NCBI RefSeq assembly: GCF_900103535.1
Contig: NZ_FNHQ01000027.1
Location: forward strand, 1 to 35,455
Source: Megasphaera paucivorans
GTDB taxonomy: Bacteria; Bacillota; Negativicutes; Veillonellales; Megasphaeraceae
DNA: 35,455 bases
Reading direction: 5' to 3'
Positions 9,228-32,459 of this stretch are shown in pieces. The notes beneath the pieces were generated by a model. That model saw only the letters and a program-made list of their open reading frames with translations, did no database searches and was not told the origin of the DNA. Position 1 is the first letter of the stretch, and every line of letters starts with the position of its first letter. Both the position numbers and the translations under genes were made by a program.

Positions 9228-9512
9228 AAAAAAATCCGTCCCTATAAAAGGGACGGATAATAATTCCGCGATACCACCCTGATTCCTGCCGCATCACTGC
9301 CGACAGGCGCTCTACAACGTACCAACATACGCGTTTCCTGTAACGTGGAAATACCGTAGACACTTAATCGAAATTCAGCATCTCTCTTCAGGGAGGATTT
9401 TCATCAACCTGTAAACACCGATTCGCACCACCCACCGGTTCTCTGCAGTTTAACTGAGTCAATTACTCGTTCCCATCATCAGATTTTTACTATGCTTCTT
9501 CAAAAAGAAGTT
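9228..9512 (-). promoter_or_regulatory. T-box riboswitch controlling ilvB
   Basis: The minus strand carries the T-box core AGGGTGGTATCGCGG (9266-9280), which pairs with the CCA end of uncharged tRNA. Stem I closes by AGCAT near 9492-9497 with ATGCT near 9378-9383. Its distal loop includes the usual AGAGAACCGG and GGTGCGAA elements, and AGTA occupies the 5' side of the specifier loop. The 3' side of that loop reads GAAAATCCTCCC. ATC (Ile, 9396-9398) is the best specifier if CCC pairs with the opposing GGG; CTC (Leu, 9393-9395) is the alternative. Low charged tRNA-Ile or tRNA-Leu would favour antitermination and ilvB expression. Confidence 0.93.
9234..9258 (-). terminator. T-box leader terminator
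   Basis: Hairpin with 10-base arms (ATCCGTCCCT / AGGGACGGAT) followed on the minus strand by a run of T residues. It lies just after the T-box sequence and before ilvB, and is the expression-platform terminator of the riboswitch. Confidence 0.93.
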
Positions 9513-9643: not shown

Positions 9644-9720
9644 TGGTCGGAACGGCGAGATTTGAACTCGCGACCTCTTCCACCCCAAGGAAGCGCGCTA
9701 CCAAGCTGCGCCACGTCCCG
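9644..9720 (-). tRNA. tRNA-Pro (anticodon GGG)
   Basis: A full cloverleaf is seen on the minus strand, 77 bases including an encoded CCA end. The acceptor stem CGGGACG pairs with CGTTCCG (one G-T). The D arm is GCGC-AGCTTGGTA-GCGC. The anticodon stem CTTCC/GGAAG encloses TTGGGGT, so positions 34-36 read GGG and decode CCC/CCU proline codons. The T arm GCGAG-TTCAAAT-CTCGC is perfect. It has its own promoter and terminator. Confidence 0.97.
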
Positions 9721-20337: not shown

Positions 20338-20781
20338 CTATTTTTTTGCAAACATATCTGCAAAAGCGCGAAGCCCCAATGTATAAACAGATTCGCCAAG
20401 CCCCATAATAATTCCTGTTGCCAAGGGAGAAATAACCGAATGATGACGGAACTCTTCCCGTTTATGCGTATTTGACATATGCAGCTCAATGATAGGGCAT
20501 TCCAAAATAGCTAATGCATCTGCAATCCCATAACTATAATGTGTCCAAGCACCGGCATTCAACATGACTCCGTCATATTGTTCCTGATAAGCTTCGTGAA
20601 TTTTATCTACAAATTCTCCTTCGCTATTTGTCTGGAAACTAGTTACCTGTATATCTAATTCCTTGCCAAGATTGTCCACCAGTTCATTAATTTCTCTCAA
20701 GGTAATCGTTCCATATTGCTTAGGATCCCGTTTACCAAACATATTATGATTTACTCCATGTAACAGCATTACTTTTTTCAT
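20338..20781 (-). CDS. aroQ: 3-dehydroquinate dehydratase, type II
   Basis: 147 residues, dodecameric flavodoxin-like enzyme carrying out the same net reaction as AroD by a different mechanism. Catalytic R18 and Y23 (KRDPKQYG), N75 (NAGAWTHYS) and H101 (ELHMSNTHKREEFRHHS) are all present. The N-terminal loop reads LHGVNHNMFG where the usual form is NGPNLNxLG, a notable divergence around the active site. The gene is last in the minus-strand CoA-transferase operon, 15 bases after the VOC gene. It may serve catabolism, biosynthesis or both, since the aro operon lacks a dehydratase. Confidence 0.93.
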   Translation of the reverse strand: MKKVMLLHGVNHNMFGKRDPKQYGTITLREINELVDNLGKELDIQVTSFQTNSEGEFVDKIHEAYQEQYDGVMLNAGAWTHYSYGIADALAILECPIIELHMSNTHKREEFRHHSVISPLATGIIMGLGESVYTLGLRAFADMFAKK

Positions 20782-24589: not shown

Positions 24590-25093
24590 TTAATTTTTCA
24601 GCGCCTCTCCTACCATCATCACTAACTGTTCCAATACTTCCGTAATTACTCCCTTGTTGGCAAGCTGCAAGTCTGCAGACAAGCGGTACACCCCAATCCG
24701 TTCGTTATATAAATCATATATTTTTTGTTTTCCATCAGCTAACAATGGCCGTGTGGAAATAATTACATCGCCAATAATATCATCTGGTTCTCTATCAATA
24801 AATATCACAATGCCTGTTTTCTTTAATACTTCAATATTAACAGGTCGTTTAATAACACCGCCGCCAGTTGCAATAACAATACCGTCTTGTTTCGCCAGTT
24901 CTTTCATTGCTCGTGTTTCAGCCTCTCGAAAACAGTTTTCACTAATCGCGAACAATTCAGGAATTTTTTTTTGTTCTCTCGCTTCGATATATACATCTGC
25001 ATCAATGAACTGACGCCCCAATCGTTCTGCTAAGGCACTGCCAAATGTAGTTTTTCCACTTCCCGGCATACCTATAATTACTATATTTTTCAT
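24590..25093 (-). CDS. aroK: Shikimate kinase
   Basis: 167 residues; phosphorylates shikimate with ATP in the chorismate pathway. Walker A is GMPGSGKTT at about 8-16, the shikimate-binding region has DADVYIE and FREAE, and ATGGGV follows. The ATG overlaps the aroE stop as ATGA, so the two are translationally coupled. Last gene of the aromatic operon. Confidence 0.95.
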   Translation of the reverse strand: MKNIVIIGMPGSGKTTFGSALAERLGRQFIDADVYIEAREQKKIPELFAISENCFREAETRAMKELAKQDGIVIATGGGVIKRPVNIEVLKKTGIVIFIDREPDDIIGDVIISTRPLLADGKQKIYDLYNERIGVYRLSADLQLANKGVITEVLEQLVMMVGEALKN

Positions 25094-25914
25094 AAAACAT
25101 TCTCCATTTCCTTAGCAATCGAATTAATAACGTCATTTCCTATTTGACGCTCCAGCCAAATTTCTTCTGAAACAACGGCTTGAGCAACAAGCATAAACAT
25201 CCCATTTAAAGTAATCGCACCATGCCGCTTTCCATATTGCAGAAACAGCGTATCCTTTGGATTATAAATAAGATCCACCAACGCTTCATAGCGGGCTGCC
25301 GTTTTTTCTGAAATAGGACAAACCTGCATATTAGGATACATACCCACAGGCGTACAGTTTACCATAAGAGGCGCCTCTTTGCGATTTTCCAGTTCATGAT
25401 ACCCAATAATTTCTATACCTATCCGTTGGGCAAAATCTGAAAATGATGGTTTCAAAAGCAGAGGGTTACGAGAAACAACGGTAATATGCGCGGCACCTGC
25501 ATCTGCTAAATATTGAATAACGGCACGTGCCGCCCCCCCTGATCCAAGAACAATACAATTCTTCCCTTCTACTTTGATTCCGGCATGATCCAGTGAACGG
25601 CCAAATCCCACATAATCTGTATTATACCCAAATAATCCCTCTTTCGTAACGTGAATTGTATTTACAGCGCCAATGCGATCCGCTGCATGAGAAATTTCTT
25701 TTAAAAAAGGCATTACGTCAATTTTATAGGGAATAGTGACATTCATTCCTGTATAGCCGCAACCTGTTTGCAAATGAGCCGATATATCACTTCGTTCCAT
25801 TTCCAGTAAATCATATTGGTTGTGATTATCTATTCCTAATTTTTTAAATAGTATTTCATGGATCTGCGGCGACACACTGTGTCCTAATTTCGCTCCTATA
25901 AGTCCGAATTTCAT
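25090..25914 (-). CDS. aroE: Shikimate dehydrogenase (biosynthetic AroE)
   Basis: Reduces 3-dehydroshikimate to shikimate with NADPH. 274 residues, with GHSVSPQIHE for substrate binding, the catalytic Lys in NVTIPYK and the partner Asp in NTDYVG. The nucleotide loop GSGGAARA is followed by VSRNP, whose Arg is the usual NADP-binding residue; this separates it from the YdiB-type copy at 16422. A strong AAGGAGGAG site precedes the ATG, which lies 59 bases inside the end of pheA. Confidence 0.95.
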   Translation of the reverse strand: MKFGLIGAKLGHSVSPQIHEILFKKLGIDNHNQYDLLEMERSDISAHLQTGCGYTGMNVTIPYKIDVMPFLKEISHAADRIGAVNTIHVTKEGLFGYNTDYVGFGRSLDHAGIKVEGKNCIVLGSGGAARAVIQYLADAGAAHITVVSRNPLLLKPSFSDFAQRIGIEIIGYHELENRKEAPLMVNCTPVGMYPNMQVCPISEKTAARYEALVDLIYNPKDTLFLQYGKRHGAITLNGMFMLVAQAVVSEEIWLERQIGNDVINSIAKEMENVL

Positions 25915-26770
25915 GAGCAGCTCCTCCTTGGTCTGACGGATAATTTCCTAAAATCTTAAAATATGTACAATTCCGAGCCAAGTCATCCAACGTTTTGACT
26001 ACACCAGGATCTATTAAACTTCCCATAACATCAATATGGAAAAAATATTCAAACGGATGCCCTTCCATCGGTCTGGATTCCAAGTGTGTCATATTCATGC
26101 CGTTGTAGAAGAAGTGGCCAAGCACATGATATAGTGCGCCCGGTTCATGTTTCGTCGTCAATACTAATGTTATCTTATCCCGATGATCGGCCTGATTCAT
26201 TTTGGGAGCAATAATAAAAAAACGCGTATAATTAAATGAGCTCGTATAGATATGAGGTACTAGTATCTGCAAGCCATATAATTCAGCTGCCATGCTGTTT
26301 GCTACTGCAGCCGCTGTGCTGTTTCCTTCCCTTTGAACTCGCTCAGCACTCTGTGATGTACTGAAATACGGACATTGGACCCAATCCGTATGTTTTCGGA
26401 AAAAATCCCGACATTGGGCAAACCCCTGCGGATGCGAATAAACAGTCCGAATATCTTCGAGCCGAGTTCCAGGAAGCGCCAATAAATGATGCTCTATTTT
26501 AATGCATTGTTCTCCTACAATAAAACAATTATTTCGGCGAATCAAATCATATACTTCCGTAATACTTCCCGTTGAAGAGTTTTCAATAGGTATAACGCCA
26601 TATTGAATTTCCTCGGCAGCAACTGCCTGTATTTCTTCTTCAAAACGGTCATAATACGTCACAGTAATAGGTTGGTTTTTAAAATAGGTCATCATAGCCT
26701 CGCTGCTGTAGGAGCCGGGTGCTCCATAGCAGCCTACGGGAATACAATATTCATAGTCATCCTGGTCCAT
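25856..26770 (-). CDS. pheA: Prephenate dehydratase with ACT domain
   Basis: Converts prephenate to phenylpyruvate for phenylalanine synthesis. 304 residues. The catalytic domain holds IPIENSSTGSI, SHPQGFAQC and the T-R-F motif at 182-184. A C-terminal ACT domain (about 200-275, with GALYHVL and THLESRP) binds Phe for feedback inhibition. No chorismate mutase domain is fused. The last 25 or so residues extend past the ACT domain and overlap aroE by 59 bases. The start has AGGGGGTG upstream, overlapping the aroC stop codon. Confidence 0.95.
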   Translation of the reverse strand: MDQDDYEYCIPVGCYGAPGSYSSEAMMTYFKNQPITVTYYDRFEEEIQAVAAEEIQYGVIPIENSSTGSITEVYDLIRRNNCFIVGEQCIKIEHHLLALPGTRLEDIRTVYSHPQGFAQCRDFFRKHTDWVQCPYFSTSQSAERVQREGNSTAAAVANSMAAELYGLQILVPHIYTSSFNYTRFFIIAPKMNQADHRDKITLVLTTKHEPGALYHVLGHFFYNGMNMTHLESRPMEGHPFEYFFHIDVMGSLIDPGVVKTLDDLARNCTYFKILGNYPSDQGGAAHEIRTYRSEIRTQCVAADP

Positions 26771-26774
26771 AGCA

Positions 26775-27866
26775 TCACCCCCTAGAATTCGCCATCATCC
26801 ACATATCGAGAAGTGTCCACGCCGTTACTGCTTCAATGACAGGAACTGCCCGCTGCACGATACACGGATCATGGCGTCCTTTTATTTCAATAGAACAATT
26901 TTCTTGTGTGTCTAAATCAATCGTTTCTTGTTTTCGGCCAATAGAGGGAGTGGGTTTAATAACCAGCCGAAAAACAAGAGGCATCCCATTGGTAATACCA
27001 CCAAGAATTCCTCCATTATGATTAGACATTGTAATTACCTTACCTTCTTTATACTGCATTGCATCATTTGCCTCTGAACCATGCATTCCCGATAATAAAA
27101 ATCCATCTCCAAATTCAATTCCCTTAACCGCAGGTATGGAGAAAAACATATGACTCAACATACTTTCGACGGAATCAAAGAAAGGGTCCCCTAATCCCGC
27201 AGGTAATCCAACAACCATACCTTCTATAATCCCACCTACAGAATCAAGCTCTCCTTTCGTCTGAGTAATGAGATTTTCTATAGGCGCCGCTTTATCTTCT
27301 TCCAGCAACGGTAATCTTTTTTTTCTAAGTGACTTAAGCAATGCCGCATCTTCTCCCATAGGACAGAACTGCCGGTCTTTAATATTTCCAATTTGCTGTA
27401 TATGAACGCCTATTGTAATACCGCGGCGTTCCAGTAATTGTGCTGCAATAGCGCCGGCGAAAACAAGCGGAGCCGTCAGCCGTCCCGAAAAATGTCCGCC
27501 GCCTCGATAATCATTAAATCCATCGTAACGAACACGACCGGTAAAATCAGCATGACCGGGACGCATAATATGACGAAGACTATCATAATCTCGAGAATGC
27601 TGATCGACATTACAAATACGAAAACACAGTGGTGTGCCTGTCGTATGTTCTTTAAAATAACCGCTTTGAATTTCAAAATCATCGGTTTCTTTTCTCGCTG
27701 TAGATAAGAGATTTTTTCCGGGCGCCCTGCGGGCCATTGCTTCACGTACTAATTCCCAATCAATGGTTTCCCCTGCCGGAATACCATCCAGAACCGCCCC
27801 CACCGATTGACCATGAGATTCTCCAAATAGTGATATAGTCAGATACTTTCCAAATATATTTGCCAT
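26775..27866 (-). CDS. aroC: Chorismate synthase
   Basis: Forms chorismate from 5-enolpyruvylshikimate-3-phosphate, needing reduced FMN. 363 residues with the signatures GESHGQSVGAVLDG, RPGHADFTG and DYRGGGHFSGRLT, and the C-terminal GRHDPCI with the DPC segment common to the family. It follows aroA after 6 bases and is 4 bases ahead of pheA. Confidence 0.97.
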   Translation of the reverse strand: MANIFGKYLTISLFGESHGQSVGAVLDGIPAGETIDWELVREAMARRAPGKNLLSTARKETDDFEIQSGYFKEHTTGTPLCFRICNVDQHSRDYDSLRHIMRPGHADFTGRVRYDGFNDYRGGGHFSGRLTAPLVFAGAIAAQLLERRGITIGVHIQQIGNIKDRQFCPMGEDAALLKSLRKKRLPLLEEDKAAPIENLITQTKGELDSVGGIIEGMVVGLPAGLGDPFFDSVESMLSHMFFSIPAVKGIEFGDGFLLSGMHGSEANDAMQYKEGKVITMSNHNGGILGGITNGMPLVFRLVIKPTPSIGRKQETIDLDTQENCSIEIKGRHDPCIVQRAVPVIEAVTAWTLLDMWMMANSRG

Positions 27867-27872
27867 GCCCTT

Positions 27873-29156
27873 TTATCCTTCCTTTTCAATAATTCCGCCG
27901 AGTTCAGCATAATCGCTCCAAAACCCAGGATATGACTTGCGAACACATTCCGCCCCTTCAACAATAACCTTATCGTTACAACATTGTGCCGCAATTGCCA
28001 GCGACATAGCGATCCGATGATCACCCCAAGCATTGACACGCCCCCCGCGCAGATGATCTACACCGCGTATAAGCAGTCCTTCTGGTTCTTCGCGCACATC
28101 GGCTCCTAATTTGTTCAGTTCTACCGCCATCGCATGAAGACGATCACATTCTTTCAGCCGCACACGGCCGGCATGAATAATATGTGTAATGCCGCGGCTT
28201 ACTGAAGCAAGTACGGTCAATATGGGAACCAAATCCGGACAATCTGCTGCATCTATGACCATTCCCTGCAACTTTGATGCGGTTGTTATGATAGAATCTT
28301 CCGTATGAATGCTCCCCCCCATACGACGAATAATAGAAATAATAGCTTTATCTCCCTGACACGTTTCCGACTGCAACCCCTGACAGCATATCTTTTTCCC
28401 GATAATTCCTGCCGCCAGCCAAAAGGCAGCTTGAGAATAATCACCTTCCGTCATATAATTGCCTGCTTGAAAGTGTTGTTGTCCCGGAATAAAATATATC
28501 CCGTTTTCTTTTTTCTCAGTTGCAATGCCATGTTTTTTGAGACATGCCAGCGTCATATCTACATAACTCGCCGATTCAAGTGTTGTCGTACTGCATAAAA
28601 GAGAATCTCCCTGGATAAGCGGCAGTGCTAAAAGCAGTCCAGTAAAAAATTGAGAACTTATATTTCCTGGTAGTGCATACCGCCCCGGTGTTAATCCACC
28701 GAAAACTTGCAGAGGAAGTCCTTTTTCCTGTCTTTCATAGTGAACATCACACTTATCAAATACATCATAGTATGGCTGCAACGGTCGTTCTGCCAGACGT
28801 CCGCTGCCAATGTAGGTAACGGTATTCCCACTGATAAGTCCTACCGGTATAAGAAAACGCAGTGTCGATCCCGATTCACCGCAATGCACAGTCAACGGTG
28901 TTTCTTGTTTGTGCAGCCCTCCGTGCACATAATATTTCATGCGATTCGATTTTCCATCAGGAATTTCTTGAATAGCAGCACCCATTTGGCGTAAAATTCG
29001 GCAAGTTGCGGCAATATCTTCGGAAGCCGTAATATTTTCTACAATACTTTCACCTTGAGCTAATGCCGCACAAATCAATTCACGGTGCCCTTGGCTTTTG
29101 GAAGAAGGAACGGTAATGGTACCTGTTAATTTTTTAGGAGTTAATACGAGATTCAT
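27873..29156 (-). CDS. aroA: 5-enolpyruvylshikimate-3-phosphate synthase
   Basis: Transfers enolpyruvate from PEP to shikimate-3-phosphate. 427 residues. The N-terminal Lys lies in VPSSKSQGHR, the phosphoenolpyruvate loop in CGESGSTLRF, and the C-terminal domain has WGDHRIAMSLAIAA. The loop differs from the NAGTAxR form of the best-known class I enzymes. Its ATG overlaps the aroB stop as ATGA. The next gene, aroC, starts 6 bases downstream. Confidence 0.96.
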   Translation of the reverse strand: MNLVLTPKKLTGTITVPSSKSQGHRELICAALAQGESIVENITASEDIAATCRILRQMGAAIQEIPDGKSNRMKYYVHGGLHKQETPLTVHCGESGSTLRFLIPVGLISGNTVTYIGSGRLAERPLQPYYDVFDKCDVHYERQEKGLPLQVFGGLTPGRYALPGNISSQFFTGLLLALPLIQGDSLLCSTTTLESASYVDMTLACLKKHGIATEKKENGIYFIPGQQHFQAGNYMTEGDYSQAAFWLAAGIIGKKICCQGLQSETCQGDKAIISIIRRMGGSIHTEDSIITTASKLQGMVIDAADCPDLVPILTVLASVSRGITHIIHAGRVRLKECDRLHAMAVELNKLGADVREEPEGLLIRGVDHLRGGRVNAWGDHRIAMSLAIAAQCCNDKVIVEGAECVRKSYPGFWSDYAELGGIIEKEG

Positions 29157-30229
29157 GCTAAATCTCCTTTCGAAATATATGTGGAAATATCCGGGCCAAG
29201 AACTGGGAACCGTTTTCCTTTGCCAATACGTTCTAAAATAATAAAAGTTATATCATCGCCGCGTTTCTTTTTGTCATGGCCAATATATTTCAATAACTCT
29301 TTTTCCGATGCCTCCATCATAACCGGTAAATGAAACTTTTGAAGTACGTTTCGGATTCTCTCTGCGGTTCCTCTTTCAGTAAGTCCCAATGCCTCCGTTT
29401 GTGCAGTCAAAAGCATCATTCCTATAGCTACTGCTTCTCCATGGGTATAGGTTCCATACCCATAATATTTTTCAACGGCATGTCCTATCGTATGCCCAAA
29501 ATTCAAAAGCATCCGTTCCCCTGTATCGTGTTCATCATGCTCTACAATTCTCGCTTTAATTTCACAGCAAGTTTTGATTATTTCCTGCCAACATAGGTTT
29601 ATTTCGTCATCTCCGGAAACCTGTTCAAATAATGTAAAAAGTTTTTCATTGCAGATACATCCATATTTAATGACTTCGGCTAATCCGTCATGTGTTATAC
29701 GTTCAGGCAGCGTCCGTACTAATTCAGGATCGATAAATACAGCTTTAGGCTGATAAAAACAACCGGCCAGATTTTTCCCCGAAGGAAGGTCAATTGCAAC
29801 TTTCCCCCCTACACTGCTATCCACTTGCGCCAAAACCGTTGTAGGAATTTGAATGAAAGGAATTCCTCGCAAATAAGTTGCTGCTGCAAAACCTCCCAAA
29901 TCTCCGGGAACGCCCCCGCCAAAGGTAATGATCGCATCACTCCGGGTAATGGAAAAATCAGAAAGAGCTGCATAAATTTGGGCTAGCGTTTCTATATTTT
30001 TACTCTGCTCCCCTGCAGAAAACACAATGCGCTTGCTGCTTATTCCGCTATTATTTAAAGTAGTTTGCAATCTGTTTCCATACAAACGATCCACCGTATC
30101 ATCGCTGATAACAGCTATTTTATCTGTATTGCTTATCCTTCGAACAGCAGGTCCCAATATATCGAGCAATCCATTCTGCACATAAATGCTATATGAATCT
30201 TTTCCTAAATTAACATGTATGTTTTCCAC
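29153..30229 (-). CDS. aroB: 3-dehydroquinate synthase
   Basis: Cyclises DAHP to 3-dehydroquinate; NAD- and metal-dependent. The NAD loop is GGGVPGDLGGFAAATYLRG, and the metal site includes HTIGHAVE and HGEAVAIGM. I chose GTG at 30229 (358 residues) because AAGGGA lies 8 bases upstream and homology begins there; an upstream TTG at 30265 would add 12 residues without support. The start lies 20 bases inside tyrA, indicating coupling. Confidence 0.93.
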   Translation of the reverse strand: MENIHVNLGKDSYSIYVQNGLLDILGPAVRRISNTDKIAVISDDTVDRLYGNRLQTTLNNSGISSKRIVFSAGEQSKNIETLAQIYAALSDFSITRSDAIITFGGGVPGDLGGFAAATYLRGIPFIQIPTTVLAQVDSSVGGKVAIDLPSGKNLAGCFYQPKAVFIDPELVRTLPERITHDGLAEVIKYGCICNEKLFTLFEQVSGDDEINLCWQEIIKTCCEIKARIVEHDEHDTGERMLLNFGHTIGHAVEKYYGYGTYTHGEAVAIGMMLLTAQTEALGLTERGTAERIRNVLQKFHLPVMMEASEKELLKYIGHDKKKRGDDITFIILERIGKGKRFPVLGPDISTYISKGDLA

Positions 30230-31094
30230 GAGTAAGTTCCCTTCTGCGAACAGCGGCTTTTTCAAGATACTCCATCATTTTGTCTTTGTCACTATTCACT
30301 AAAAGTTCTGTAAAATCTTCTAAGGAGTTTTTAAACCGATTGATTTCTTCAAGCAGATTCTTTTTATTTTCCATAAACAACTGTGTCCACAAACGTGCAT
30401 TAATATCAGCCACACGAGTTCCATCCCGAAAGCTTCCGGCAACAAAATACTTTGTTCTGACATCCATAGAATTACTATTAACAAGCGCCGTCGCCACTAC
30501 ATGCGGAAGACTGCTTGTATAAGCAATCATACGATCATGCTCTTCTGCCGTCACTTGGATAACATGCCCACAGCCTATCTCTTTGGCTATTCTGCCAATA
30601 AGCCGAATATTCTCTATTTTATTTTTTTTCTGCGGTATCAAAATGTAATTAGCTCCTCGGAAAATAGAAGCATCGGACTGTGATAATCCGGATCCTTCCC
30701 TCCCTGCCATAGGATGTCCGGGAATAAAGTCCATCTCATGGCAAAGCAGCTGCTGTATGATATGTATTGTATCGCCTTTAATGCCCGCTATATCTGTCAA
30801 AATGGCATCGGATTTAAAATTCGTTTGATATTGATGGATAAATGCTATCATATCACTTGCAGGCAAGCAAAAAATCAGCAAGTCCGCGTTTTTCAAAGCG
30901 TCATCTCCACAAATATCGCCTGTTTCAATAAGGTTTTCTGCAAGCGCTTGTTCTACGGTCTGCAGATTCTTATCAATGCCAATAATATGCTGTACCCCTG
31001 CATTTTTCAATGCTTTGGCATAGGACCCTCCCATCAGTCCCAATCCTATAATTCCTATCGTAAAGTCCGTAAAGTCGCTTTCCGAATTATCCAC
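30210..31094 (-). CDS. tyrA: Prephenate dehydrogenase
   Basis: Oxidative decarboxylation of prephenate to 4-hydroxyphenylpyruvate with NAD(P). Rossmann loop GLGLMGGSYAKAL; conserved His residues in GHPMAGREGSG and SSLPHVVATAL. No ACT or chorismate mutase domain is fused. The frame is open up to a TTG at 31112, but GTG at 31094 has GAGGTG 6 bases upstream, so I prefer it (294 residues). Second gene of the operon. Confidence 0.93.
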   Translation of the reverse strand: MDNSESDFTDFTIGIIGLGLMGGSYAKALKNAGVQHIIGIDKNLQTVEQALAENLIETGDICGDDALKNADLLIFCLPASDMIAFIHQYQTNFKSDAILTDIAGIKGDTIHIIQQLLCHEMDFIPGHPMAGREGSGLSQSDASIFRGANYILIPQKKNKIENIRLIGRIAKEIGCGHVIQVTAEEHDRMIAYTSSLPHVVATALVNSNSMDVRTKYFVAGSFRDGTRVADINARLWTQLFMENKKNLLEEINRFKNSLEDFTELLVNSDKDKMMEYLEKAAVRRRELTRGKHTC

Positions 31095-31126
31095 GCTGTT
31101 CACCTCAATCAACTGTTTACTATAAT

Positions 31127-32143
31127 CTATAGTTCCCGTCCTACAACAGGTGCTATCTGTCGCAATGAATTCATCAGATGGTCAAACATCTGCGGAGTAA
31201 TAGATTGGGCTCCGTCACATAAAGCATGATCCGGATCGTTATGAACTTCTACCATGATACCATCCGCACCAGCAGCAATCGCCGCTTTTGCCATTGGTTC
31301 AACCATCCAGCGCTTGCCGGTGGCATGACTGGGATCCACCAGAATAGGCAAATGACTTTGTCGTTTAATTGCAGGAATAGCACTTAGATCAAGTGTATTT
31401 CTCGTATACTCTTCAAATGTGCGAATGCCGCGTTCACAAAGGATTACATTGCGATTTCCGCCTGCCATGATATATTCTGCCGACATAAGCCATTCTTCGA
31501 TAGTGGCACATAACCCACGTTTTAATAAAACAGGCTTATTCACCTTTCCGACCGCTTTCAATAATTCAAAGTTCTGCATATTTCGGGAGCCAATTTGTAT
31601 AGCATCAATATCATCATCTAAAAATGCTTCTAGTTTATCTGCTGACATAATCTCTGTCACAACAGGGATTCGGGCTTTTTGACTGGCATGATGAAGCATT
31701 TCCAATCCACTATCCCGTAATCCTTGAAACGAATAGGGAGATGTTCGAGGTTTAAATGCTCCCCCCCGCAGCATAGACGCTCCAGAAAGTTTTACCGCTT
31801 TGGCGATACCATCTATCTGTTCCTGTGATTCGACAGAACACGGACCGGCAATAACCGCAATTTTTTTGCCCCCGATTTTGATATCTCCAATATCTACAAC
31901 AGTATCCTGCGGGTGAAACGATCGGCTGGCTCTTTTGTAAGGTTCCGATACCCTCATGACGTTTTCGACATACTCATTCGCTTTAAGTTGTTCCCCATCA
32001 ATGACTGATGTATCCCCTACAAGTCCCATAACTGTTTTTTTTGCCCCTCTGCTTTCATCAATCTGCAGTCCTTTCATTTGAATAGATCGTTTAATTTTCT
32101 CGATTTCTTTCTGTGGTGTCCCTTGTTTCAGCACAATAATCAT
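31127..32143 (-). CDS. aroF: DAHP synthase, type I-beta with N-terminal regulatory domain
   Basis: Condenses PEP and erythrose-4-phosphate, the committed step. 338 residues. The first 70 or so form the ferredoxin-like feedback domain seen in Thermotoga-type enzymes. The barrel carries AGPCSVES, RGGAFKPRTSPYSFQG, the KRG segment and VDPSHATG with metal and substrate ligands. The ribosome binding site GGGGAGG lies upstream. First structural gene of the aro operon, behind the attenuator. Confidence 0.95.
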   Translation of the reverse strand: MIIVLKQGTPQKEIEKIKRSIQMKGLQIDESRGAKKTVMGLVGDTSVIDGEQLKANEYVENVMRVSEPYKRASRSFHPQDTVVDIGDIKIGGKKIAVIAGPCSVESQEQIDGIAKAVKLSGASMLRGGAFKPRTSPYSFQGLRDSGLEMLHHASQKARIPVVTEIMSADKLEAFLDDDIDAIQIGSRNMQNFELLKAVGKVNKPVLLKRGLCATIEEWLMSAEYIMAGGNRNVILCERGIRTFEEYTRNTLDLSAIPAIKRQSHLPILVDPSHATGKRWMVEPMAKAAIAAGADGIMVEVHNDPDHALCDGAQSITPQMFDHLMNSLRQIAPVVGREL

Positions 32144-32169
32144 AATAAATTTTCCTCCCCATTCTCCAA

Positions 32170-32198
32170 CAAAAAAAGCAGGCTCTCATGAGCCTGCT
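32170..32198 (-). terminator. Attenuator terminator ahead of aroF
   Basis: Minus-strand stem AGCAGGCTC / GAGCCTGCT (32190-32198 and 32177-32185), loop of 4, then seven T residues. It lies between the leader peptide stop codon and aroF, 34 bases before the aroF ATG, so it must be bypassed to express the operon. Confidence 0.95.
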
Positions 32199-32220
32199 CC
32201 TGTCAGTGCGTATTCGTATA

Positions 32221-32385
32221 CTAATGCGTTGCTATTGAAGGTATACGGTGAAGTGCTCCCATGTTTGTCGACTGCATATATGATTTGGCATAGCAAAAAT
32301 AACCGGCGTAATAAAAGTATACCCGGCTAAAGTCGTACCAAAAACCATATGCAATTGCAGTTTGTAACATAGATCGTAACTTCAT
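32221..32385 (-). CDS. Aromatic-rich leader peptide of the aro operon
   Basis: A 54-codon open frame starting at ATG 32385 with GGGAG upstream and ending in TAG. Between residues 13 and 36 there are 8 Tyr, 4 Phe and 1 Trp among 24 positions (for example YGFWYDF and VYFYYAGYF). It is not similar to any enzyme. The position just after a consensus promoter and just before an intrinsic terminator is that of a transcription-attenuation leader, where ribosome stalling at scarce tRNA-Tyr, -Phe or -Trp prevents termination. The frame extends upstream only to a TTG, not a likely start. Confidence 0.88.
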   Translation of the reverse strand: MKLRSMLQTAIAYGFWYDFSRVYFYYAGYFCYAKSYMQSTNMGALHRIPSIATH

Positions 32386-32430
32386 TTTAGATATTCTCCC
32401 TCTGCAACTTTTCAAAAATTTATTGTGCTT

Positions 32431-32459
32431 ATTCTATCCTTCTCAACTTAATTTGTCAA
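32431..32459 (-). promoter_or_regulatory. Promoter of the aro operon
   Basis: TTGACA (32454-32459), 17-base spacer, TAGAAT (32431-32436). Start predicted near 32424, about 40 bases before the leader peptide ATG. Confidence 0.92.

Follow-up and report, generated by a model that had tools for sequence, protein, structure and literature searches.

The aro operon of Megasphaera paucivorans is very probably controlled by a classical ribosome-mediated transcription attenuator (we put the probability at about 0.88), as judged from the leader sequence and from those of its relatives; translation of a short peptide rich in Tyr, Phe and Trp, and stalling of the ribosome within it, would decide whether transcription passes an intrinsic terminator. 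There are good grounds to think that this leader belongs to a single homologous attenuator family, defined by a hairpin within the coding sequence, which would be old in the phylum and copied from aroF to aroA-aroC, aroK, aroE, pheA, tyrA and other aroF genes, giving a multi-operon regulon like those of T-boxes and riboswitches. The window, by which we mean the whole 35,455-nucleotide stretch of DNA that was analysed, comes from a 2.9 Mb genome assembly and carries the following parts.

32459-32431, minus strand: sigma-70-type promoter, TTGACA-17-TAGAAT, with 11 of 12 consensus matches
32385 (ATG) to 32221 (end of stop), minus strand: leader peptide ORF, 54 codons plus stop
32366-32373, minus strand: region 1 (UCUAUGUU), which in the minimum free energy fold forms the base of a large 1:2 hairpin together with region 2
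32299-32328, minus strand: P2 hairpin within the coding sequence (codons SRVYFYYAGY), at the tip of the 1:2 hairpin; 33.6 bits
32263-32258, minus strand: region 2 (CAUGGG), the antiterminator strand, identified by comparison with relatives
32192-32187, minus strand: region 3 (CUCAUG), the end of the terminator 5' arm and loop, partner of region 2
32169-32201, minus strand: intrinsic terminator 3:4 and T-run; a 12-pair stem at 32201-32174, then T7
31127-32143, minus strand: aroF, encoding DAHP synthase, the first structural gene, about 25 nt after the terminator and T-run
24590-31112, minus strand: tyrA, aroB, aroA, aroC, pheA, aroE and aroK, contiguous or overlapping

The first-pass annotation had proposed a consensus promoter, a 54-residue leader with 13 aromatic residues in 24 positions and an intrinsic terminator ahead of eight aromatic biosynthesis genes. 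All of these were recovered: the promoter is near-consensus, direct counting finds 13 Tyr, Phe or Trp among codons 13-36, the terminator has the stem and T-run given above, and the genes behind it run aroF-tyrA-aroB-aroA-aroC-pheA-aroE-aroK, tyrA encoding prephenate dehydrogenase and pheA prephenate dehydratase. Transcription would start near 32424, and promoters alike in kind and place lie upstream of the relatives' leaders. The peptide, MKLRSMLQTAIAYGFWYDFSRVYFYYAGYFCYAKSYMQSTNMGALHRIPSIATH, is preceded by a ribosome-binding site, GGGAG, about 10 nt 5' of its ATG, and its control codons (13, 15, 16, 17, 19, 23, 24, 25, 26, 29, 30, 32 and 36) comprise 8 Tyr, 4 Phe and 1 Trp. The description of the leader as Tyr-dominated holds for these 8 of 13 residues in the window, but relatives exchange the three residues freely and a mixed Tyr/Phe/Trp leader is the better description. 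The aroF product shares 96% identity with a protein from a Megasphaera metagenome-assembled genome and 75% with that of Megasphaera cerevisiae. Downstream of the operon, at 20338-20781 on the minus strand, lies aroQ (type II dehydroquinate dehydratase), the sole shikimate step that the operon does not encode; a CoA-transferase gene and others intervene. The T-box that had been noted before ilvB in the same window was found at 9246-9488 on the minus strand; a tRNA gene (9647-9720) lies a short way upstream.

The analysis established that these parts are present and conserved and that they can form paired structures which co-vary; the order of events that we infer is as follows. A ribosome would begin the leader once RNA polymerase has started. 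When charged Tyr-, Phe- and Trp-tRNA are plentiful, it would run through the leader, the large 1:2 hairpin, with P2 at its tip and region 2 in its base, would form, and the terminator 3:4 would then fold and end transcription before aroF. If too little aromatic tRNA is charged, the ribosome would stall within codons 13-36 and open P2 and the 1:2 hairpin; region 2, set free some 10-20 nt ahead of the ribosome, would pair (2:3) with the terminator loop and the end of the terminator 5' arm. The terminator would then fail to form and the whole aro operon would be transcribed.

Comparison of aroF loci supports this reading. Of 114 Negativicutes loci, 90 have, ahead of aroF, a leader that has a ribosome-binding site and in which a stretch of 14 codons holds at least six aromatic residues, compared with 2.5% of Markov-randomised sequences, a recurrence that excludes chance. 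The same criterion identified a leader at 16 of 26 aroF loci from other classes of the phylum, at none of 13 in a Selenomonadaceae-like family (f14) and at none of 14 in Chloroflexota. An ORF of the same layout precedes aroF in almost all Megasphaera, and also in Dialister-like genomes and in Acidaminococcaceae-like and Sporomusa-like families, these labels being inferred from numbered families except where record titles give them; in Veillonellaceae, a leader with another layout and another peptide occupies the same place. The intrinsic terminator between leader and aroF is conserved in relatives. So is a peptide core, FS(W/Q/R)(G/S)YFFS(A/V/F)GYF, a near doubling of FSxGYF. Searches of NCBIfam and Pfam assigned the leader peptides to no family, the single hit being one relative to DUF1576 at E 0.13, below the cut-off. 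One Megasphaera-family genome (G007, L056) has aroF without the leader; a CAGGCTCAT-type hairpin is kept before the gene, the leader ORF and T-run are gone, and the locus is apparently a decayed attenuator.

The peptide core is conserved because its RNA folds into P2 with compensatory changes. P2 is a 10-pair hairpin formed by the core segment, and it folds in almost every leader. On a sequence alignment that was not fitted to structure, its arms pair in 92.5% of cells, whereas sliding the partner lowers this to 27-46%; changes on both sides are seen at four pairs, and the covariation score exceeds that of every shuffle. The arms read GCCGG/CCGGU in the window, GCCAG/CUGGC or GCCAA/UUGGU in others, and GGUUGG/CUUCGACU where Gly is replaced by Asp. 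Serines of the core are encoded by AGY in 57 of 57 cases, against 33 of 92 outside it (p 6e-18), and the Ser-to-Gly change in the core is AGC to GGC. P2 is thus an RNA element inside the leader, hidden if the peptide alone is viewed. Its loop varies in length and sequence, and U-rich Tyr-Phe codons lie 3' of it. By analogy, P2 is probably an RNA-polymerase pause hairpin, which would hold the polymerase until the ribosome comes. We also considered that P2, followed by the U's of those codons, might be the terminator in some relatives, and rejected this, as the real terminator lies past the stop codon.

These observations bear on a different account of the leader, in which the nascent chain in the exit tunnel would sense free aromatic amino acids or another metabolite independently of uncharged tRNA. 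Arrest peptides of this kind exist, TnaC sensing tryptophan, and conservation of the core FS(W/Q/R)GYFFSAGYF well beyond its aromatic residues is what one would expect of them. However, that non-aromatic conservation can be accounted for by RNA pairing: serine occurs only as AGY, and the Ser-Gly and Gly-Asp exchanges keep or compensate pairs of P2. Tyr, Phe and Trp moreover swap freely at the aromatic positions, and the Veillonellaceae peptide at the same place is a different one. We therefore regard an arrest peptide as improbable.

Ribosome-mediated attenuation further involves mutually exclusive structures. None of 200 dinucleotide shuffles folds as well as the leader RNA in the window (z -3.4), and leader ORFs as a group are more stably folded than versions with their codon order shuffled (mean z -2.8) or with synonymous codons exchanged (mean z -2.2). 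Free of ribosomes, the leader is predicted to fold into one long hairpin with P2 at its tip; in most Megasphaera-type leaders, the predicted base of this 1:2 hairpin joins the ORF start (region 1) to region 2. To model stalling at the core's end, we removed the RNA up to the front edge of the ribosome and folded what remained as far as the terminator loop, whereupon region 2 closes on region 3.

Region 2 lies about 30 nt past the control codons and pairs with the terminator loop. Across relatives, in a region-2 search window chosen after the sequences were seen, the mean 2:3 pairing energy is -6.19 kcal/mol, against -3.85 (sd 0.33) with region 2 shuffled. Swapping partners between genomes gives a mean of -5.01 (sd 0.33), and 8 of 20,000 permutations do as well as the true partners, a conservative control because many swaps join similar genomes. 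Pairing of region 3 with the leader is strongest 10-18 nt past the edge of the stalled ribosome. The pairs are clade-specific (CAUGAG/CUCAUG, GAUGAGUC/GACUCAUC, UUAAUGAGU/ACUCAUUAA, GAGAACCUUU/AGAGGUUCUU and UACGGGUA/UACCCGUA), and since regions 2 and 3 change jointly between clades, the leaders have 1:2, 2:3 and 3:4 structures that exclude one another. An antiterminator that stalling would make reachable is thus found across relatives and is weak in the window by itself: the helix there is short (CAUGGG with CUCAUG, six pairs, one of them G-U), and with the whole leader tail scored, 2:3 pairing in the window alone is no better than in shuffles (z 0.4), so the antiterminator rests on the comparison of relatives. 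A duplex test of whole tail against whole arm was abandoned as too blunt, being clear for Veillonellaceae only, and the fixed-offset test was used instead.

Veillonellaceae have the textbook layout: the segment immediately 3' of the control codons, UACGGGUA, is the partner of UACCCGUA in the terminator, and a competing 1:2 hairpin, GUUCUUUA/UAAAGAAC, read from the sequences, takes in control codons. At these loci (L058, L074, L079, L084, L089 and others), the leader is QYFYWFFIQRTGKELF, with 1:2, 2:3 and 3:4 and without P2. When a ribosome reaches the stop codon of a Megasphaera-type leader, it has left region 2 about 35 nt behind and would leave it uncovered; release of region 2 from region 3 in the fed state would therefore have to come through the 1:2 hairpin or through timing. 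Many other families have their stop codon nearer, at 4-25 nt beyond region 2, where a finishing ribosome would cover that region.

The range of the element was examined by running a P2 covariance model on the whole genomes of 300 Negativicutes, which returned 100 matches in 83 of them. Of the 100, 73 are on the aroF strand, 129-444 nt upstream of that gene. The length of each of these 73 is a multiple of three, as would follow from preservation of a reading frame together with the fold, although the genomes are related and not independent. The sole match in the window's own genome is the aroF leader. Among the other matches examined, many precede aroA-aroC (G070, G117, G099), aroK (G082, G110, G118), aroE (G168), pheA (G147), further aroF genes (G128, G239), the gene for an ACT-domain protein (G004) and, in a genome without aroF of this type (G009), tyrA. 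The element thus stays on aro genes where aroF is gone (G009) or where aroA, aroK, aroE or pheA is split off from it. Several families of the phylum outside Negativicutes carry the same hairpin and peptide ahead of aroF, and G655 has them ahead of aroB. Weak matches at G082:C1:2095727, G094:C67, G097:C117, G004:C1:217764 and 1948945, and G010:C1:1528254 look spurious because they lack an aromatic leader or lie inside other genes. The copy before the ACT-domain gene in G004, a Megasphaera-family genome (L164/L207, G004:C1:880707-880733), is a second leader with P2 and a CAUG-type terminator about 2 kb from the aroF copy; the protein encoded behind it is a paired ACT-domain protein.

A conserved, structured P2 and large leader hairpin could also belong to a ligand-binding riboswitch or a protein-binding leader with an incidental ORF. 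We consider this very unlikely: the frame and the aromatic codons are kept, as the 73 P2 lengths illustrate, the P2 loop varies unlike a binding pocket, and the leader matched no covariance model of Rfam 15, the Trp, Phe, His, Leu and Thr leaders included. Equally remote is a constitutive promoter-proximal terminator with a short expressed peptide and no control by aromatic supply, which leaves unexplained the co-varying 2:3 pairing, the match of codon content to pathway and the reuse on several aro operons. Ribosome-mediated attenuation, as the first-pass annotation had read it, is supported by a conserved, translated-looking leader, control codons that match the products, the terminator and an antiterminator pairing that co-varies by clade.

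The mechanism itself is classical, and both leader attenuation in Firmicutes and an aromatic leader on aroF were known before, so that the earlier claim of novelty in a Firmicute was too strong. His leader peptides have been published in Bacillus and Clostridia, including Peptostreptococcaceae (PMC2965389, PMC9413887), and a Leu leader peptide on ilv-leu in Staphylococcus aureus (PMC5794164); these share amino-acid-specific attenuation in Firmicutes but concern other amino acids and separate lineages. A predicted aroF uORF in Acholeplasma, uORFC-13-1 (PMC8632094), likewise has Phe codons followed by a terminator and aroF, but by its description, which is what sets it apart, it has 24 members, all from Acholeplasma or environmental sequences, and a minimum of one Phe codon. 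The Corynebacterium glutamicum aroR leader of the aroF operon has been studied experimentally (Neshat et al. 2014, as related in PMC11802643); according to that secondary account, it contains Phe and Tyr codons at which ribosome stalling raises aroF operon transcription, but it differs, again by description only, in having a Phe-Tyr-Phe motif, belonging to Actinobacteria and being reported to respond to Phe and not Tyr. The proteobacterial trp, pheA and his leaders share the 1:2/2:3/3:4 logic and control codons in a leader peptide, whereas the aro family would be one homologous element on many aro operons, with a conserved coding hairpin, mixed Tyr, Phe and Trp codons and a region 3 that reaches into the terminator loop. 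T-boxes also link tRNA charging to read-through of Firmicute amino-acid operons and are reused on many operons, but the aro leader would sense through translation, and an Rfam search gave no T-box match (RF00230) in it. What appears to be new is a homologous, structure-conserved attenuator family of Negativicutes and other Firmicutes, serving several aro operons within one genome; we find no such family described in open PMC papers.

Classical attenuators are usually viewed as fast-evolving and newly invented in each lineage. Sequence and structure allow the aro attenuator to be traced across one class and into others, and the evolution of a leader-peptide attenuator is thereby open to study in the manner of riboswitches. 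Negativicutes, among them Megasphaera, Dialister, Veillonella and other bacteria of the gut, the mouth and breweries, probably control the shikimate pathway through it, and the leader could readily serve as a reporter to tell which of Tyr, Phe and Trp is sensed.

Short ORFs of other kinds were also seen before aroF. Chloroflexota aroF loci were rejected as relatives of the element, as those searched contain no P2 match; six of them (L022, L024, L025, L026, L028, L029) have very short conserved ORFs 125-170 nt before aroF that end RFYFRYPA or RYYFRYPA and look like another, unrelated aromatic leader. Leaders of a type missing from most other Fusobacteriia examined, MVMKGFRYWYELKSNQIS, ...NSFWYFYYFINTDL and MATQNFTNWYFYYYFRN, precede aroF in Fusobacteriota (L012, L013, L015, L031, L214). 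At L012, a segment 3' of the ORF, AACAGGUUUA, has its complement in the terminator arm UAAACCUGUU.
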